From Sphaerobacter thermophilus DSM 20745 (lineage in GTDB: Bacteria; Chloroflexota; Chloroflexia; Thermomicrobiales; Thermomicrobiaceae): 64,000 nt of DNA. The position numbers were made by a program, and so were the translations under genes. Position 1 is the stretch's first letter, and every line of letters starts with the position of its first letter. Of this stretch, positions 23,876-32,481 are shown in pieces. The stretch is taken from contig NC_013524.1 of assembly GCF_000024985.1 (NCBI RefSeq), positions 372,001 to 436,000 on the forward strand. Reading direction: 5' to 3'. A model generated the notes under the pieces. That model did not search any database and had not been told where the DNA came from. It saw only the letters and a list, made by a program, of their open reading frames with translations.

Positions 23876-25813
23876 CTAGGACGGCCGCGCGACGCCGAGC
23901 CGCTCCACAAACCAGTTCACCGCCCGTTCCATCACATCCCGCTGGTGCTCACGCTCGCGGACGCCGTGTGGCTCGCGCGGGTAGACGACGCACTGGGCCT
24001 CGACCCCGCGGGATCGGAGGCCGCGCGTCATCTCGTACGCCTGTCCAACGGGGCAACACGGATCCTGCTCCCCGTGGAGGAACAGGGTCGGCGTCCGAAC
24101 CCGATCCACGTAGAAGATCGGCGAGCGGGGCGCGTAGCGCCCGTCCAGCGTGAAGGGGTTGTCCCGGAGAAAGATCTCGTCGAAGCCGGGAATGTTCGTG
24201 CCTCCGTGGAACGAATACCAGTTGGTGATGCTGGCCCCGGCCACCGCTGCCCGGAAGCGGTCGGTCTGGGTGATAGCCCAGCAGGTGAGGTAGCCGCCGT
24301 AGCTCCAGCCGCCGACGCCCAGCCGCTCCGGGTCGGCGATGCCGTCCCGGACGCAGGCGTCCACCCCAGCCAGGATATCCTGCAGGTCCCCACCGCCGAG
24401 GTCGCCGATGTTGGCCTCAGCGAAGGCCAGCCCGTATCCGGCGCTCCCTCGCGGGTTCGGCAGCAGGACGGCGCACCCGCGCGCGGCCAGCAGGTGGATC
24501 CAGCTTCCGGGGCCGGACGGGCGCAGCCCGTAGGCCCAAGAGGCGGTCGGGCCGCCGTGGATGAGCGTCACCAGTGGCCACGGTGGGTTGCCCGCACCCC
24601 GCGGGCGAACCAGCATCCCCTCGATCTCCATGCCGTCGGGCCCGGTCCAGCGCAGCGTCTCGTACGGGCTGAGCAAGTCCGCCGGGAAGTCGGCGTTGAC
24701 CGCGCTGCGCCGTGCCCACCGGACCCCTTCCGGTCCCTGATCCGCGATCCGCCCGACCCACAGCTCCACCGGCTCCGTCGGGGCACTCATCCCCGTGGCC
24801 ACCCACCGGCCGTCGGCACTGATGTCGACGCCGGTGCCGTAGACGTTGAAGAAGCGCTCCCCGGCCCACAGCGTCTGCGTCCGTCCGGCGCCGGTCGGAT
24901 CAAGCAGGCAGATCGCCGCCCGGTTGCGCTCGAGCGCCGCGGCGAAGAGCCGCCCATCCGCAACCCAGTGGAGCGACAGGTACGACCGCGGCTCCCCCGC
25001 GGTCAGCGGCTGCGCCGTACCTCCCGCGGCCGGGACGACGAGCACGTCGCCCCCGCTCATGCCCGGGTCGCTCCAGGTGCTGGTGATCAGCACGATTGCG
25101 CGCCCATCCGGCGACCAGACCGGACCGGTGATCTGCCGCTCGGGCGCGTAGAGGGTCGTCACCTCGCCCGTCGCCACGTCGATGCGTACCAGCCGCGCCC
25201 GGTACCAGGACCAGGCGTAGGGCAGATCGCTGACGATCGCCGCGATCGCCGACCCATCGGGCGACCAGGCCAACTCCCAGACGTGCACGGGTCCGGTCGT
25301 GAGGCAGCGCGCCTCCCCGCTGGCCACATCCACCAGCCAGATTCGACCGAAGGCGTGCTCCTCCTCAAAGAGAACCCAGTCCTTCCCCTCGGGCCGGTTG
25401 CGTCCCACGGCGTCGGGAGCGATGACCGCGATCGTGCGCCCGTCCGGTGCCCAGGCGATTGCGCTGATCCCGGCGTCGAACTCGCGCAGCAACTCCGGTT
25501 CCGCCCAGGACCGCAGCAGGTAGAGCTGCCCGGTACCGCGCTTCTTCCGGTCGGACCGGAACGCCAGCGTCTCCCCGTCCGGCGACCAGCGCGGCAGGTC
25601 GTCCGTCCCCGGCCCCTGGGACACCTGCCGGGGCTCGCCGCCCGCCACATCCACCAGCCAGATCCGGCTGCGCGGCGACGGTTCCTGGTAGTCCACCGAT
25701 GCCTCAGCCACGACGAAGGCCACCCGGCGGCCGCCTGGGTCGATCTGCGCATCATTCACCGACTTGAGGGTCAGCAGGTCATCCGCGGTCAGCACTGCCC
25801 GCGCTTCCATCAT
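23876..25813 (-). CDS. S9-family serine peptidase, second copy
   Basis: The 645-aa protein has the same beta-propeller plus alpha/beta-hydrolase design as the one at 9347-11290. The propeller shows repeated WSPDG motifs. The catalytic Ser is in GGWSYGGYLTCW, the Asp in HGEQDPCCPV and the His in REPHGVREREHQ. The presence of two neighbouring Cys after the Asp is unlike the first copy. The ATG at 25813 is used because conservation begins with ARAVLTADDLL; the frame runs 34 codons further upstream. It is cytoplasmic and probably degrades peptides. Confidence 0.88.
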   Translation of the reverse strand: MMEARAVLTADDLLTLKSVNDAQIDPGGRRVAFVVAEASVDYQEPSPRSRIWLVDVAGGEPRQVSQGPGTDDLPRWSPDGETLAFRSDRKKRGTGQLYLLRSWAEPELLREFDAGISAIAWAPDGRTIAVIAPDAVGRNRPEGKDWVLFEEEHAFGRIWLVDVASGEARCLTTGPVHVWELAWSPDGSAIAAIVSDLPYAWSWYRARLVRIDVATGEVTTLYAPERQITGPVWSPDGRAIVLITSTWSDPGMSGGDVLVVPAAGGTAQPLTAGEPRSYLSLHWVADGRLFAAALERNRAAICLLDPTGAGRTQTLWAGERFFNVYGTGVDISADGRWVATGMSAPTEPVELWVGRIADQGPEGVRWARRSAVNADFPADLLSPYETLRWTGPDGMEIEGMLVRPRGAGNPPWPLVTLIHGGPTASWAYGLRPSGPGSWIHLLAARGCAVLLPNPRGSAGYGLAFAEANIGDLGGGDLQDILAGVDACVRDGIADPERLGVGGWSYGGYLTCWAITQTDRFRAAVAGASITNWYSFHGGTNIPGFDEIFLRDNPFTLDGRYAPRSPIFYVDRVRTPTLFLHGEQDPCCPVGQAYEMTRGLRSRGVEAQCVVYPREPHGVREREHQRDVMERAVNWFVERLGVARPS

Positions 25814-25971
25814 CGCCTCTATTCCCGCCACAGTATTGGGTGCCGGTCCTCCGGCAAACGCGTACGCTAGTTGACCACAGGCAATCCGCGCTGTCGAGAG
25901 CGCACCTTGCAACACATCCCGGCGCTGGGTAGAGTCAGAGTGATCGCGCCCGACGGCGAAGGGGGATTCGC

Positions 25972-26430
25972 ATGATCGACAGGGGAGCGAGAATCTCGAC
26001 CGGCACCCTCGCGCGCGCCGTAGCCTACGGGCTGGGTACCGGCGCGGCGGTCCTGCTGCTCGTTGGCATCCCGACGGTGCTCATCCCGAACCCCTGGTTC
26101 AGCCGCATGGTGCCCACCCGGCCGCAGGATTACGCCTTCCTAGCGCTGACCGTCCTGCTGAGCGCCCTGATCGGCGCGACCTACGCCTTCCCCGCCGCCT
26201 GTCCGCTGCAGGAGGGCAAGCTTACCGCGGGCGGTTTCCTCTCGTTCCTGGCCGTCGGCTGCCCGGTGTGCAACAAGATCGTCGTGCTGGCGCTCGGCAC
26301 CACCGGCGCCATGCGCTACTTCGAGCCGGCCCAGCCGCTCCTCGCCATCGCCGGGATCGCCCTCCTCGGCTACGCCCTCTTCGTCAGGCTCCGTGCCACC
26401 CGCCACGCCTGGTGGCCGTCGTCTACATAA
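25972..26430 (+). CDS. Small membrane protein with conserved CPVCN motif
   Basis: The 152-aa protein has four predicted membrane segments. A Cys in FPAACPLQEGK precedes helix 3, and the motif GCPVCNKIVVLALGTTGAM opens the third hydrophobic region. A CxxC next to the membrane suggests thiol-disulfide chemistry or metal binding, but the family has no function that I know. The ATG follows AAGGGGG. The gene is divergent from the S9 peptidase. Confidence 0.75.
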   Translation: MIDRGARISTGTLARAVAYGLGTGAAVLLLVGIPTVLIPNPWFSRMVPTRPQDYAFLALTVLLSALIGATYAFPAACPLQEGKLTAGGFLSFLAVGCPVCNKIVVLALGTTGAMRYFEPAQPLLAIAGIALLGYALFVRLRATRHAWWPSST

Positions 26431-27203
26431 CGAGCGACCAGCGGCTTCGGACCTGTGGATCGCGCCGGCGGCTGAAAGAGGCATCTTGGCGGCGTGCGCG
26501 TCGGCGCGCATCTCCCCGGTGAGAAGCGCGGCCCCGCCCTCTTTGGGCAATGGCCCACCCAGCATGCCCCAACCTTACCAGCAACTCAGCCCTTGGCTTC
26601 CTGCAGGATAACGCCGTGGCGCCTCCCACGTCGACGCGGTAGCGCCCGTATGGGCGCTACCGCGCCAGTGCCCCGCCGCAACATTGGCTGGGTCGTCTCC
26701 TGCCGAACAGGCGGCTTGGTTCCGTCCGGCACGATCGCGGCCGAGCTTCCGCGTCGAGCAGCGGTAGCCCGTTCGTTTTTTTCACGGCCGCCTATGGGCT
26801 CTCCCAGATGTGCCCCCCAACCACAACGGCAGGCACTCTCGACATGAGCACAGGATCCTAGCGCGATCCGAAGTCGGATCGAACACGGCTTGTCCGGGAC
26901 AGGCCGAGTGGACCAACGCGTTAGGCCCGCATATGCCGGAATCTTTGCGATCACCTCACCATGGATCTTACGTTCGGACACAAGATCGGCTACTATGGTG
27001 CCATCACAGGCTGTACAAGCTAGTTTGTGGGGAGCATCTGCGTCATATGTGATTGACCCACCAGATTCAAGACTCGCAAACTTGTTCTGTGCGCCATAGG
27101 TGATGTCAAGCGCAAGCTAGACAGGCAACCGCTACACCCGTGATCGCGCGTTGTTCCTGAAGGGAATCCATTCGATAGCCGTTATTGACGGAAGGAGGGG
27201 CAC
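26431..27203. other. Long intergenic region with one strong hairpin
   Basis: No gene is supported over 770 bp. A perfect 10-bp stem with GTAT loop lies at 26638-26661 and may end transcription from the upstream gene. From about 26850 the GC content falls toward that of the next gene. Confidence 0.45.
26638..26661 (+). terminator. Perfect 10-bp hairpin
   Basis: GGTAGCGCCC at 26638-26647 pairs fully with GGGCGCTACC at 26652-26661 around a GTAT loop. There is no T-run behind it. It lies 208 bp past the upstream stop. Confidence 0.4.
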
Positions 27204-27864
27204 ATGAAACGACTCGGTTTGGCGACACTGGTTGTCCTTCTCGTTACCAGCTCTGGCACCGCATTTGCTGCCTGGGGCGTTACCTGGAAGGGACCGCGAT
27301 ACTCGCCCACCTCGGGGCTCGCCTGGTACACCCCAACTTATATTAAACTATTGGGGTGGACATAAGTTGTACAGTCAGACGGGCGCATGGGGGCGGCATA
27401 TCTATGCCAGCACTGATTGGACATACTACGATCAAAACCGGCTGAACAGCCTCTATTCATACTGGCAAGCAACAAACTACCAGTACGTACCCACGACCAT
27501 CCACTTCGATGATCAAGCGTACGGCGGCGGAACGCACTATTCGGGGTTACATGCTACCGGCTGGTACTATACGAACTTTCCTAACCCGGAGTACCGCTCA
27601 GGAGACGATGACGGCGACACTCGACACGAGGAGATTGAAGTCCGGTGGTCTCCAACCTTCGCGGCAGGAGGATACAATATCGAGGTTGAGTACTGGGATC
27701 CTCTCTACAACGATAACACTGGTGTTGGGAACACTGGTGAGGTGAATGTGGCCAGTTACATCACAACGGCTATTGGATGGCTACGGATCGGCCATCAGTG
27801 GATGTGCAAGTTCTACTATCCGGAGCGTGATTACCTCCCCTGGTCATTCGATTGTCGCGCATAG
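27204..27864 (+). pseudogene. Secreted protein gene broken by a +1 frameshift
   Basis: A good ribosome binding site (GAAGGAGGGG) precedes ATG 27204, which opens a clear signal peptide MKRLGLATLVVLLVTSSG ending in AFA. This frame stops at 27364-27366. The following 170 codons, rich in Tyr, Trp, Asn and Gly and with GGTHYSGLHATGWYYT, are open in the +1 frame until 27864 and have no start of their own. Joining the frames near the CCCC run at 27331-27334 gives a secreted protein of about 220 aa. I do not recognise the mature domain. GC content is lower than in neighbours, which suggests foreign origin. A sequencing error or true frameshift cannot be told apart here. Confidence 0.7.
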
Positions 27865-27897
27865 GTACCACACGTACGCGGAAGGGGGTCGAGCCAG

Positions 27898-28638
27898 ATG
27901 AGACCAAGACTGGCCATCGGGCGGTTTTGGCGGTTGGCTGTCTTGCTCGTGGCCGTGGGGCTGGTCATTTCGGCGTGGGTGGTCCGGTCCAGTCAATCGA
28001 CTGCGGCTGATCCACTAATCCCCGCGCCAGCCACTGCAGACCTGATGCGAGGCAGCGGATGGAGTGTGAAGACCGAGGTGCTCGGCGACCAAGTGGCAGC
28101 GGGAGTGAGCTTCTCTACCTACGAACGGTCAGCGCTCCTCGACTACGCAGAGCGTGTGCGAGGAGCGGGAGCACACGTCTTTGACAGACATGACACAGTG
28201 CCAGCACTCGTCACGTTCCGCCATCCAATCTCGCTAGAGACCTTCCCGGAACTGATGGAACGGGCCGGCGCATCGGTGGTGAGTTTCAGAATTCGGACAG
28301 TGGAGCCTGATGGGCGACGAGGCACACTCGGTGGCGCTCCGGAACCCGATGGTACAGTCCTCGACGTTGAGCACGTCGCCACCTTTACCGAGCGGCAAGA
28401 ACAAAGCAAGGGTGGTCCACTGAAGGTACTGGGTGTCATCGATGCTGAGGTCCTGGTCGACCGTGCTGCGTTCGACCGACTGACAAGTAACGTGGACGAT
28501 GTGTTCTTGGTCGATATCATGCGAGCGGTCGTATACGACCATCTCCCAGACACGGCAAAGGACCGGGTTCCGATGCGTGATGTACGCTTGGAGCCACTGT
28601 ACTGGCATCTCGAGGACAATGGGCTCACTACATCCTAG
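27898..28638 (+). CDS. Membrane-anchored exported protein of unknown function
   Basis: The 246-aa protein begins with Arg-rich residues and one hydrophobic segment (LAVLLVAVGLVISAWVV), which is a signal anchor, and the rest is predicted to be outside. I see no known domain. It starts 33 bp after the frameshifted secreted protein and has its own GGAAGGGGG site, so the two were probably one operon. Like its neighbour it has lower GC than the surrounding genes. Confidence 0.7.
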   Translation: MRPRLAIGRFWRLAVLLVAVGLVISAWVVRSSQSTAADPLIPAPATADLMRGSGWSVKTEVLGDQVAAGVSFSTYERSALLDYAERVRGAGAHVFDRHDTVPALVTFRHPISLETFPELMERAGASVVSFRIRTVEPDGRRGTLGGAPEPDGTVLDVEHVATFTERQEQSKGGPLKVLGVIDAEVLVDRAAFDRLTSNVDDVFLVDIMRAVVYDHLPDTAKDRVPMRDVRLEPLYWHLEDNGLTTS

Positions 28639-28973
28639 CGTGTGGTAGTCAAGCGGGTTAGGTACGAGCCTCGCCAGGCACGTCTACACTGCTGGAACGA
28701 CCGACGCGAGAGCACCCTAGCCCGCTGAACAGATGCGACGAATACCGCTCTCCGTCCTCTGTCTACCATCATCCATCTGGTGAGCGGCGATGGCAGAGGC
28801 GGAGCCAGAGCAGGAGCGCCGGCGTGGACGCCGGCGCCCGTCCGGGGCCACCCCCGCAGCAAAGCCGGCGAGAGGGCGGGCGCTCCTGTTCGCGGCTCAT
28901 CGGACAGATAACGCTGGACGGAGCAGTGAGCGAGCGGGCCTCACAACCGTTGAGTAGCAAAGGGGCTCGTCTC
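28639..28973. other. Intergenic region with a GC hairpin
   Basis: No gene is seen. A perfect 9-bp stem of GCGCCGGCG (28816-28824 with 28829-28837) with a TGGA loop may be a terminator for the upstream pair. The remaining sequence should carry the promoter of the next gene. Confidence 0.4.
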
Positions 28974-29444
28974 ATGAGTGACGGACCCGCCGTACGAGCC
29001 GAGGAACTCGTGACCCGCGCGATGCGCTACGTCACTTGGTCCGGCTACTTCGCCCTGTTCGCCCTGGCGACGCTCATCTTCGGGCTGATCGCAGCATGCT
29101 TCGTCCCCACTGACTGGGTCGTGACGCGGAAGGACTACGTCTATCTCCAAATGCACCCACGCGGCGTCCTCGATCTGGCTGAAGACTATGAGCAATTCAT
29201 CGCCACCAGCCAGAAGGATCCGATTCAGAACCAGCAGTGGCGTGAGCGGCGGCAGCACTTGTGGGTGAACTACTGGCTGCGATGGGGAACCGTGATGATC
29301 GTGGTTGGGGCAGTCACGCTCGGCCTCGATCGGCTGTTCGGGCGCCGGGTGAGCGTCCGCTTCGTTGCCGCGCTGTTCCTCGCCTTTACCATCGCCATCG
29401 GGATCTATCTCGTTACACACCCCGGCTTCAATCCGCTGGTGTGA
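28974..29444 (+). CDS. Small membrane protein of unknown function
   Basis: The 156-aa protein starts at an ATG behind AAGGGG. It has one membrane helix at about residues 22-45, a polar middle of about 55 residues with DYEQFIATSQKDP, and two more helices near the C-terminus. No family is recognised. It is not clearly linked to either neighbour. Confidence 0.65.
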   Translation: MSDGPAVRAEELVTRAMRYVTWSGYFALFALATLIFGLIAACFVPTDWVVTRKDYVYLQMHPRGVLDLAEDYEQFIATSQKDPIQNQQWRERRQHLWVNYWLRWGTVMIVVGAVTLGLDRLFGRRVSVRFVAALFLAFTIAIGIYLVTHPGFNPLV

Positions 29445-29675
29445 GGATGGGGTGGGCATCCCCAGCCGCGGGACATCCGGACGGCGGACCTCCCACTCAT
29501 CCGGATAGACCGAAGGGAGGGACCGGGCACGGTGCAGTCACTTTCTCACCATCCTAGCGCCTGCCGCGGCGACGACCGCCTCCGCGCCACCCGCGACGCA
29601 TGGTGGTGCGGATAGAACTGCAGGCGTAAGACTGAGCCCCGCTCGACCCCGTGCGCGATCGATGCGCCAAAGAGC

Positions 29676-29819
29676 GGCCCTCACCCCCGGCCCCTCTCCC
29701 GGGGTCGGAAGAGGGGAGGAGGCCGGAGTCGCCAGCACGCGATTCCGAACCGGCACACGCAGGACGCACCAGGTCCCCCCTCTCCCAACGTTGGGAGAGG
29801 GGGTCAGGGGGTGAGGGCC
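29676..29819. repeat. MITE-like element with inverted ends
   Basis: The ends GGCCCTCACCCCC are inverted copies of each other and continue into C/T-rich arms. The right arm contains a perfect 28-bp palindrome at 29776-29803 centred on CCAACGTTGG. A 26-bp form of this palindrome, followed by the same GGGTGAGGGCC, recurs at 52748-52773. Confidence 0.6.
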
Positions 29820-29846
29820 GTCCTCACCCAAGGCATCCCCTTGATG

Positions 29847-29872
29847 TCATATATGATCTCCTCTATGATCAT
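29847..29872 (+). promoter_or_regulatory. Candidate operator palindromes upstream of GntR gene
   Basis: TCATATATGA (29847-29856) and ATGATCAT (29865-29872) are both perfect palindromes, with TATGATC repeated in each. They stand out as AT-rich in a GC-rich region 30-55 bp before the GntR start. Autoregulation by the GntR protein is inference. Confidence 0.4.
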
Positions 29873-29900
29873 CCCTGTCAGTGACCATTCGCGAGGGTGC

Positions 29901-30647
29901 ATGAACAGCAAGCAGGAGCTGGCCTACCAGACGATCCGCGCGCGCATCATCGACGGCGCCTACGGCCCCGGCTACCGCATCGTGATCGACGAAGTGGCGC
30001 GTGAGCTCGGGGTCAGTCCAATCCCGGTGCGGGAGGCTGTCCGGCGGTTGGAAGCCGAGGGGCTGATCACTTACACCCGCCATGCCGGCGCCCGCGTCGT
30101 CGCCATCGACGAGCGGCAATACGTCGATACTCTAGCGACCCTCGCGGTGCTTGAGGGCTACGCGACGGCACTCGCCGCGCCACGGCTCGATGAGAGCGAC
30201 CTGGCCGAACTGCACCGCCTGACCGGCGAGATGCGCGCGGCGCTCGACCGGGGCGACCTGCTGCGCTACGGCACGCTCAACCGCGCCTACCACGAGGCAA
30301 TCTATCGCCGCTGCCCGAACGACTATCTGACCGATCAGATCCGCGCGGCGTGGGCACGGCTCGACTCGATGCGCCACTCGATCTTCGTCCTGCTGCCGGA
30401 GCGAGCACGCGCCTCGATCGTCGACCACGAGCGCATCAACGTTCTGCTCGCCTCCGGTGCGCCGGCAGTCGAAATCGAGCGGGTGGTGCGGCAGCACAAG
30501 CTCGCCACCGCCGAGGCGTTCCATGACCGAACGGTGCGCTGCCGCGCAGCTGCATCCGATGGTGCCGCACCAGGCGGCAGCGGCACCACCGGTCAGGCAA
30601 CGGAGGAGGTGACCACCCTGGGCTCAGACCGGGTTCTGCCTTCCTAG
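29901..30647 (+). CDS. GntR-family regulator with FCD-type ligand domain
   Basis: The 248-aa protein has an N-terminal winged helix (AYQTIRARIIDGAYGPGYRI, ARELGVSPIPVREAVRRLEAEGL) and an all-helical C-terminal FCD domain with the metal or ligand residues spread over LNRAYHEAIYRRC and ERINVLLAS. FCD regulators usually respond to carboxylic acids. It stands at the head of the aromatic island on the same strand and most likely controls it. The ATG at 29901 fits the start of the winged helix; an in-frame start at 29811 would add a leader that covers the candidate operators. Confidence 0.87.
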   Translation: MNSKQELAYQTIRARIIDGAYGPGYRIVIDEVARELGVSPIPVREAVRRLEAEGLITYTRHAGARVVAIDERQYVDTLATLAVLEGYATALAAPRLDESDLAELHRLTGEMRAALDRGDLLRYGTLNRAYHEAIYRRCPNDYLTDQIRAAWARLDSMRHSIFVLLPERARASIVDHERINVLLASGAPAVEIERVVRQHKLATAEAFHDRTVRCRAAASDGAAPGGSGTTGQATEEVTTLGSDRVLPS

Positions 30648-31080
30648 TGCGGCCCGGTCCTTTCCAGGATCTCCATTCCGACCGGGAGGAGGAGACCGAT
30701 GCGCACGATCCCGAATTCACGTCACCGCGATCCGTGGCGCGTCTCATCCCTCATTGTGACGCTCCCGGTCATGGCCCTGGGGCGCAGCGCGAGCGATACG
30801 CCCGCCCCACGGGCAACAAAGGCAGCTACGGTCGCAACGCCACACCATACCAGCGGCGCTGCACCCTGTAGCATCCACCGTTACCACGGTGCCAGCGCAC
30901 ACAGACCGCATCGAGATCTTCTCCAGCACACTACTGGCGCCCACGGGTCCAGGGCGCTGCTCGATCGTGAGGTGCGTGATCCATGCCAACCCGTTCCGAC
31001 CGTGCAGAAGGAGTCGGCGTTAGTGAGAGCCAGGTAGGTCGCGGAATCTGAAGGCCACCTCGCCAGGAAGGAGGCGATTC
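30648..31080. other. Leader region with possible decayed gene start
   Basis: A strong ribosome binding site (GGGAGGAGGAG) precedes an ATG at 30699. The following 112 codons have a weak hydrophobic stretch and then low-complexity sequence without family resemblance. It may be the start of a decayed exported protein gene. Otherwise nothing is recognised before the ribosome binding site of the next gene. Confidence 0.35.
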
Positions 31081-32481
31081 ATGCAGAACGCGAAACCGCG
31101 GACACTACAGCACCTTCTCGACGAGACCCCGGCGATCCAGGAACGCCTGTACCACAACCCCTCCGGTGGACGCTTCTGGCCGAACGTTCCGCCTGAGTTC
31201 ACGAACTGGCGGGACGAACAGCGGGCCTGGCGGGAGACGGTGGCACTCTTCAATCAGTCCTACCACATGACCGACATGTTCCTGCGCGGCCCGGACGCCT
31301 TCTCGCTCCTGGAGCGGCTCGCCATCAACTCATTCGACGGCTTCGAACCGGGACAGGCCAAGCACCTCGTCTGTGTCACACCAGACGGCTACTACGTCGG
31401 CGACTGCATCCTGTTCTACCTCGAGGACGGCACGTTCCAACTCGTTGGGGTGGGAGCGATCCACAACTGGGTGCAGTATCACGCTGAAACCAGCGGAGCA
31501 GACGTCACCTGGGAGCGGGATGAATCGTCCCGCGTGGATCCGAATCGCAAGCGACTGACGTACCGGTTCCAACTCCAGGGCCCAAACGCAACCAAGCTCT
31601 TGGAGAAGCTGACCGGCGGGAAGCTTCCCGATGTCCCCTTCTTCCACTTCGCCCGGATCAACATCGCCGGCCACACCGTCGGCATGCTCCACCACGGCAT
31701 GGTCGGAGTACCCGGCGCGGAGCTGTTTGGTCCGTACGATGAGGGGTCGGCCGTCAGAGAAGCGATTGTCGAAGCGGGCAAGGAGTTTGGACTCCGCCAA
31801 GTCGGCTCGCGCACCTATGCGACGAACACGCTCGAGTCAGGCTGGATCCCGAATCCTCTCCCAGCCGTGTACACCGGCCAGGCGTTGCAAGGCTACCGAG
31901 AGTGGCTCCCTGCCACGGCATTCGAGGCGGTCAGCTCCCTGGGGGGAAGCTTTGTGTCCCAGCGCATCGAGGACTACTACCTCACGCCGTGGGACCTCGG
32001 CTATGGCCGCTTGCTGAAGTTCGACCACGACTTCATCGGTCGTGCAGCGCTCGAGCGAATGGCGAACGATCCACATCGCCGCAGAGTCACGCTGGTGTGG
32101 GACGGCGAGGACACCGCACGGATCCTCGGCAGCATCGCCCAGAAGCCCTATGGCGAGCAGTTCAAGTACTTCGAGCTCCCGCTGGCACAGTACGCGACCT
32201 GGATGTACGACGCGGTGCGCAACGACAATGGCGACGTTGTGGGATTCGCCATGTGGACCGGATACAGCATCAACGAGCAAGCGGTCCTCTCCCTGGCAAC
32301 CGTTGACCGCGAGTACGCCGAGCCGGGTAGCCGCCTCCGCCTCATCTGGGGAGAGCCGAATGGCGGCTCGCGAAAGCCGTCGGTTGAGCCGCATGTCCAG
32401 ACCGAGGTGGGTGTCACCGTGGGGCCGGTCCCCTATGCGGAACCGGCGCGGCAATACCGGAAGGCCGTGGTCAGGCGATAG
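31081..32481 (+). CDS. GcvT-fold aromatic O-demethylase, LigM/DesA-like
   Basis: The 466-aa protein is of the folate-binding aminomethyltransferase (GcvT) fold and fits LigM and DesA (about 460-470 aa), which move the methyl group of methoxylated aromatic acids to tetrahydrofolate. Recognisable segments are FNQSYHMTDMFLRGPDA, LGGSFVSQRIEDYYLTPWDLGYG and KFDHDFIGRAALE. It starts behind AAGGAGG and begins a plus-strand run with the ABC importer and homoprotocatechuate genes. A methoxyphenylacetate such as homovanillate is the logical substrate, since demethylation would give the substrate of the HpaD-like enzyme. The exact substrate is inference; a glycine-betaine-type demethylase is the alternative. 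Confidence 0.75.
   Translation: MQNAKPRTLQHLLDETPAIQERLYHNPSGGRFWPNVPPEFTNWRDEQRAWRETVALFNQSYHMTDMFLRGPDAFSLLERLAINSFDGFEPGQAKHLVCVTPDGYYVGDCILFYLEDGTFQLVGVGAIHNWVQYHAETSGADVTWERDESSRVDPNRKRLTYRFQLQGPNATKLLEKLTGGKLPDVPFFHFARINIAGHTVGMLHHGMVGVPGAELFGPYDEGSAVREAIVEAGKEFGLRQVGSRTYATNTLESGWIPNPLPAVYTGQALQGYREWLPATAFEAVSSLGGSFVSQRIEDYYLTPWDLGYGRLLKFDHDFIGRAALERMANDPHRRRVTLVWDGEDTARILGSIAQKPYGEQFKYFELPLAQYATWMYDAVRNDNGDVVGFAMWTGYSINEQAVLSLATVDREYAEPGSRLRLIWGEPNGGSRKPSVEPHVQTEVGVTVGPVPYAEPARQYRKAVVRR

Follow-up and report, generated by a model that had tools for sequence, protein, structure and literature searches.

Why should the signal peptide of a small exported protein lie in one reading frame and its main domain in another? 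Such a gene may be broken, wrongly sequenced, translated across the frame change, or in fact two genes. We analysed one in a 64,000-nucleotide stretch of the genome of the thermophilic bacterium Sphaerobacter thermophilus DSM 20745 (the window; C2:372001-436000 in a two-contig genome of 3,993,764 bases), where the gene, here called A, occupies 27204-27864 and is followed 33 bases downstream by a second gene, B. Our comparisons indicate that A is probably a pseudogene, inactivated recently, and that the small islet which it shares with B was probably acquired.

Gene A is divided between two frames

The first part of A (27204-27365, plus strand) encodes 53 aa in frame 0, comprising a signal peptide and about 30 more residues; its ATG is preceded by GGAAGGAGGGG and it ends with a TAA at 27363-27365. 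Its N-terminus is signal-peptide-like, with a top 12-residue hydropathy mean of 2.63. The second part (27340-27864, plus strand) is a Tyr/Trp-rich domain (W 5.5%, Y 12.1%) in the +1 frame, which is open for 218 codons to a stop at 27864. Over 27367-27861 this frame contains no stop, compared with 9 and 2 in the remaining two frames, and a stop-free frame over the same interval arose in 9 of 20,000 mononucleotide shuffles. The earliest start in the +1 frame, a TTG at 27232, crosses the signal region out of frame (top hydropathy mean 1.13). The open frames, stops and shuffles thus bear out the original prediction that signal peptide and domain are in different frames (+1). The frame change severs the domain-coding part from its start, as in a frameshift pseudogene.

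The change is bounded to about 27208-27362. Its likeliest location is the AT-rich stretch at 27326-27373 (plus strand), in which an 8-base inverted repeat (27329-27336 / 27351-27358) lies between two short direct repeats at 27326 and 27369. Nowhere else in the 64-kb window do 18-mers containing 16 or more A/T cluster; the inverted repeat alone is not significant, since 107 of similar size are present in the window. We ruled out the AT-rich stretch as a repeated element: 26 of its bases occur once in the genome with up to 3 mismatches allowed, and a mobile-element origin of the break is therefore not shown. Either an indel of one base or the insertion of a short segment could account for the break.

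Gene B is intact and lies with A in a low-GC islet

Gene B (27898-28638, plus strand) is intact, with 246 aa, its own ribosome-binding site and one N-terminal membrane segment. Because this single segment is strongly hydrophobic (hydropathy mean 3.31), B is better described as membrane-anchored than as exported; of the predicted pair of exported proteins, the intact B was upheld, but its export was not. The pair was also said to differ in base composition from its neighbours, and it does: GC is 53-61% in 500-base windows starting at 26750-28250, against 64-73% (starts 24000-26500) and 62-69% (starts 28750-31500) in the flanks.

In G413, a genome of the same genus, the flanks of this islet (26517-28929, unstranded) adjoin each other. 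G413 matches 26010-26516 (82%) and 28930-29492 (89%) with 227 bases between the two matches and without A and B; a weak additional match at 26910-26992 (71%), if counted, would leave 26993-28929 as the missing segment. The empty site may reflect either acquisition of the pair by the window or its loss from G413. The neighbouring membrane-protein gene P0004 (28974-29444, plus strand) is part of the conserved flank and lies outside the islet.

Two repeats were seen nearby. A GC-rich inverted repeat with 28-base arms (75% complementary) lies at 28808-28891, between B and the next gene and close to the right edge of the islet. At 29671-29830 there is an interspersed palindromic repeat of the CCCCTCTCCC...GGGAGAGGGG type, with many more copies in the same genome and in genomes of the family.

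Neither protein matches a named family in the libraries searched

Neither domain had been recognised at the outset, and Pfam, NCBIfam, PADLOC and the PDB sequences confirmed this. A has no match in Pfam, NCBIfam, PADLOC or PDB sequences, and B none in Pfam, NCBIfam or PADLOC; for B, PHROGs gave two hits of borderline significance, at E 0.054 and 0.12, and PDB sequences one at E 0.67. Profile searches of the PDB gave best E values of 0.48 (B) and 0.22 (A). Several leads were dropped: Pfam Roadblock (E 0.013, 1 of 10 B members), DUF4405 (E 0.36, 1 of 5), and an NCBIfam acylphosphatase match to the G015 B alone (E 0.00037, spanning 40 residues and scoring 20.5 bits where the cut-off is 114). The AlphaFold single-sequence models, with mean pLDDT 32.2 for the A domain and 41.6 for B, are worthless.

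Scans of genome contigs and of plasmids with P0001 and P0002, and of phages and viral contigs with P0002, yielded no relative. Among 400 phylum genomes, the lone match to P0001 outside the window (G356, E 0.00134) spans stops and other-frame genes and was attributed to chance. Literature searches on Sphaerobacter frameshifted secreted proteins and on orphan immunity found none. The A-B cassette is undescribed in the family libraries searched.

B marks a sporadic and often decaying cassette

Distant relatives of B (22-28% identity) occur in a few Chloroflexota. At E 0.01, a single-sequence search with B hit 11 of the 400 genomes from the phylum, and 7 were upheld; the matches in G008, G023, G155 and G363 were not recovered by the profile and were set aside as chance. 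Profile A1 detects B in 8 of the 400 phylum genomes and in 5 of 61 order genomes, with G000 and G316 common to both. With the window left out, a profile from 8 relatives scores the window B at E 2.1e-34, against 1.4 for the best of 1000 shuffles, which places B in the family. No second B copy was found in its own genome, and among the 5 order genomes matched only the window B is intact (G401 being judged on its listed pieces).

We tallied 14 places with B, most of them in draft genomes, where base errors can mimic breaks. An intact A-like gene precedes an intact B at 4 of these (G318, G015, G209 and G078), the upstream gene being exported, aromatic-rich and in one frame. At 3 others B is intact and A is broken or vestigial: the window, G353:C286 and G309. 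The A-like gene of G353:C286 (L020:2738-3400, minus strand) has a TAG in frame and a start that is not clear, and the G309 remnant is a short piece with a weak match (E 0.65). Three places carry an intact B with no A seen, namely the second G318 copy and, both near contig ends, G353:C129 and G353:C253. B itself is broken at the remaining 4, being split over two frames in G413 and reduced to C-terminal pieces in G316, G414 and the second G209 copy. G401, with three weak out-of-order pieces, was left out of the tally.

The G413 copy of B lies elsewhere in that genome, adjoining nadA, and its two frames are 62% and 42% identical to the window B. Over 240 codons the two copies differ with pN 0.308 and pS 0.688, dS being near saturation, and B was under constraint. 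Taken together, the 14-place tally and the G413 flanks without A and B point to a pair that is low in GC, can move and frequently decays.

Some loci differ in further respects. G318:C62 (L022) carries two B copies that differ from each other and are separated by about 1 kb; only the first is preceded by an A-like gene. At four loci B has a gene for a small multi-pass membrane protein behind it (L047:1961-2446, L022:4744-5439, L021:4189-4620 and L017:1027-1542); its product matches no family at that family's cut-off. This gene may be a third cassette member absent from the window, where, unlike the extra membrane-protein gene after some relatives' B, the gene downstream of B belongs to the conserved flank.

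Relationship of A to the upstream genes elsewhere

The original prediction called for an unbroken homologue in relatives. Exported upstream genes in one frame were found at 4 of the 14 places, but their sequence homology to A is not established. Their spacing to B in G015, G078, G318 and G209 is -10 to 71 bases, and aromatic content in five relatives (W 3.7-5.8%, Y 4.7-8.8%) may be compared with the W 5.5% and Y 12.1% of A. In G209 the frame is open across the hydrophobic stretch, and the start codon could not be fixed. A profile of four relatives (G318, G015, G209 and G353), built without the window, scores A no better than 1000 shuffles, and pairwise shuffle z values are 1.56 (G318), 1.07 (G015), -0.65 (G209) and 0.33 (G353). 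Against G078, A gives z 3.42 (1 of 400 shuffles; 40 and 38 of 5000, in the +1 frame only) and a BLASTP E of 0.17; profile-profile comparison gives E 0.0035 but a probability of 9.3%. We discounted as evidence a multiple alignment in which A is 17-27% identical to the others, because it is forced. Where other profile searches for A listed the window, the match arises by construction, since those profiles included the window sequence. Position, export signal and composition nevertheless suggest that A is the counterpart of these upstream genes.

What the frame change represents

A recent break is the best supported of the three readings first offered for A, as the upstream exported gene, wherever it is intact beside a B relative (4 of the 14 places), occupies a single frame, and as elsewhere the cassette has been damaged by changes of a different kind. 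In its earlier form A would have specified a small, aromatic-rich protein destined for export. An indel or a short insert after the signal-peptide codons would then have caused translation to end at the TAA at 27363-27365; with translation halted there, the domain could no longer be exported and would presumably no longer be produced at all. B, retaining its own ribosome-binding site, would have remained intact.

If the gene were whole in the organism, the deposited sequence would be off by an indel. 454 reads are weak on runs, and both a CCCC and a GGGG run occur within the critical stretch, in a domain frame that is otherwise clean. Moreover, most of the coverage came from 454 (28.5x, against 7.4x Sanger), but the genome was finished and Illumina-polished, and the genome report puts its error rate at less than 1 in 100,000 (PMC3035262). 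Other copies of the cassette have also decayed, some through truncation, and we consider a sequencing error unlikely.

If A were divided into two genes, one encoding an exported peptide of 53 residues and the other a domain that is not exported and is re-initiated just past the TAA, the second could begin at a +1-frame TTG 2 bases past that stop and about 8 bases after a GGGGTGG. Such a division would leave without an export signal an aromatic-rich domain that resembles exported genes, and the arrangement is absent from all 4 intact relatives; nor is a 53-residue peptide of this make-up (a signal plus some 30 residues) found next to B at those loci. Two separate genes with their own starts, the finding named in advance as telling against a broken gene, were thus looked for in relatives and not seen, and this reading is very unlikely.

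Motifs of the CUU-UGA type are known to promote +1 frameshifting. A programmed +1 ribosomal frameshift, by which both frames would be translated as one exported protein, might be suggested by two apparently well-kept parts and a hairpin-forming 8-base inverted repeat at the site, but is very unlikely, given that the upstream genes of G318, G015, G209 and G078 are intact without a shift, that the G353 A has its in-frame TAG elsewhere, that the RNA fold of 27290-27420 is ordinary (z -0.64; 56 of 200 shuffles equally stable) and that no known +1 motif is evident by eye at the stop.

Possible function and comparison with known systems

With A taken as a recently inactivated gene, its pairing with B allows a tentative suggestion as to function. 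The two may possibly represent an exported factor and a membrane-anchored cell-surface partner of the toxin-immunity or factor-receptor kind, a fit that rests on a small exported aromatic-rich protein, a membrane-anchored partner, a sporadic and unstable distribution, and the outlasting of A by B at several of the places. A more specific proposal, which we regard as rather doubtful, is an undescribed, horizontally moving Chloroflexota pair in which an exported factor, rich in aromatic residues and perhaps antibacterial, diversifies quickly and a membrane-anchored partner protects the producing cell, with the factor gene repeatedly inactivated and the partner kept.

Pairs of the toxin-immunity (bacteriocin) type resemble this cassette in having a small exported-protein gene directly upstream of a membrane-protein gene and a sporadic distribution; A is also very divergent, and B is without A at 3 of the 14 places. 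Unlike such pairs, A and B have no homology to known toxin or immunity families in PADLOC, Pfam or NCBIfam. The B ectodomain may resemble subtilase-propeptide-like inhibitors (Inhibitor_I9): by eye it follows a strand-helix-strand / strand-helix-strand order and ends in 'VxGVI...L..D..VFLVDV'. Inhibitor_I9 was absent from the 5 Pfam families listed for 10 B members at E up to 1, and unlike Inhibitor_I9 systems there is no protease next to B.

The frame break itself is ordinary. Its value is as a pointer to an unnamed two-gene cassette of Chloroflexota, reached by following B. A genome of the same genus shows the site unoccupied, and four other genomes have intact copies on which function could be studied. 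In a 1106-genome survey, pseudogene clusters dominate over recoding clusters (4010 vs 146; PMC3711429), which also argues against a programmed shift in A. A is like the GeneTack frameshift pseudogenes described in that survey in that its frame changes once and is clean elsewhere, that the shift is not conserved, and, if the upstream genes are its counterparts, that relatives' copies are intact or broken in other ways. It is unlike them in being one of a pair without a named family, whose partner, B, is intact.
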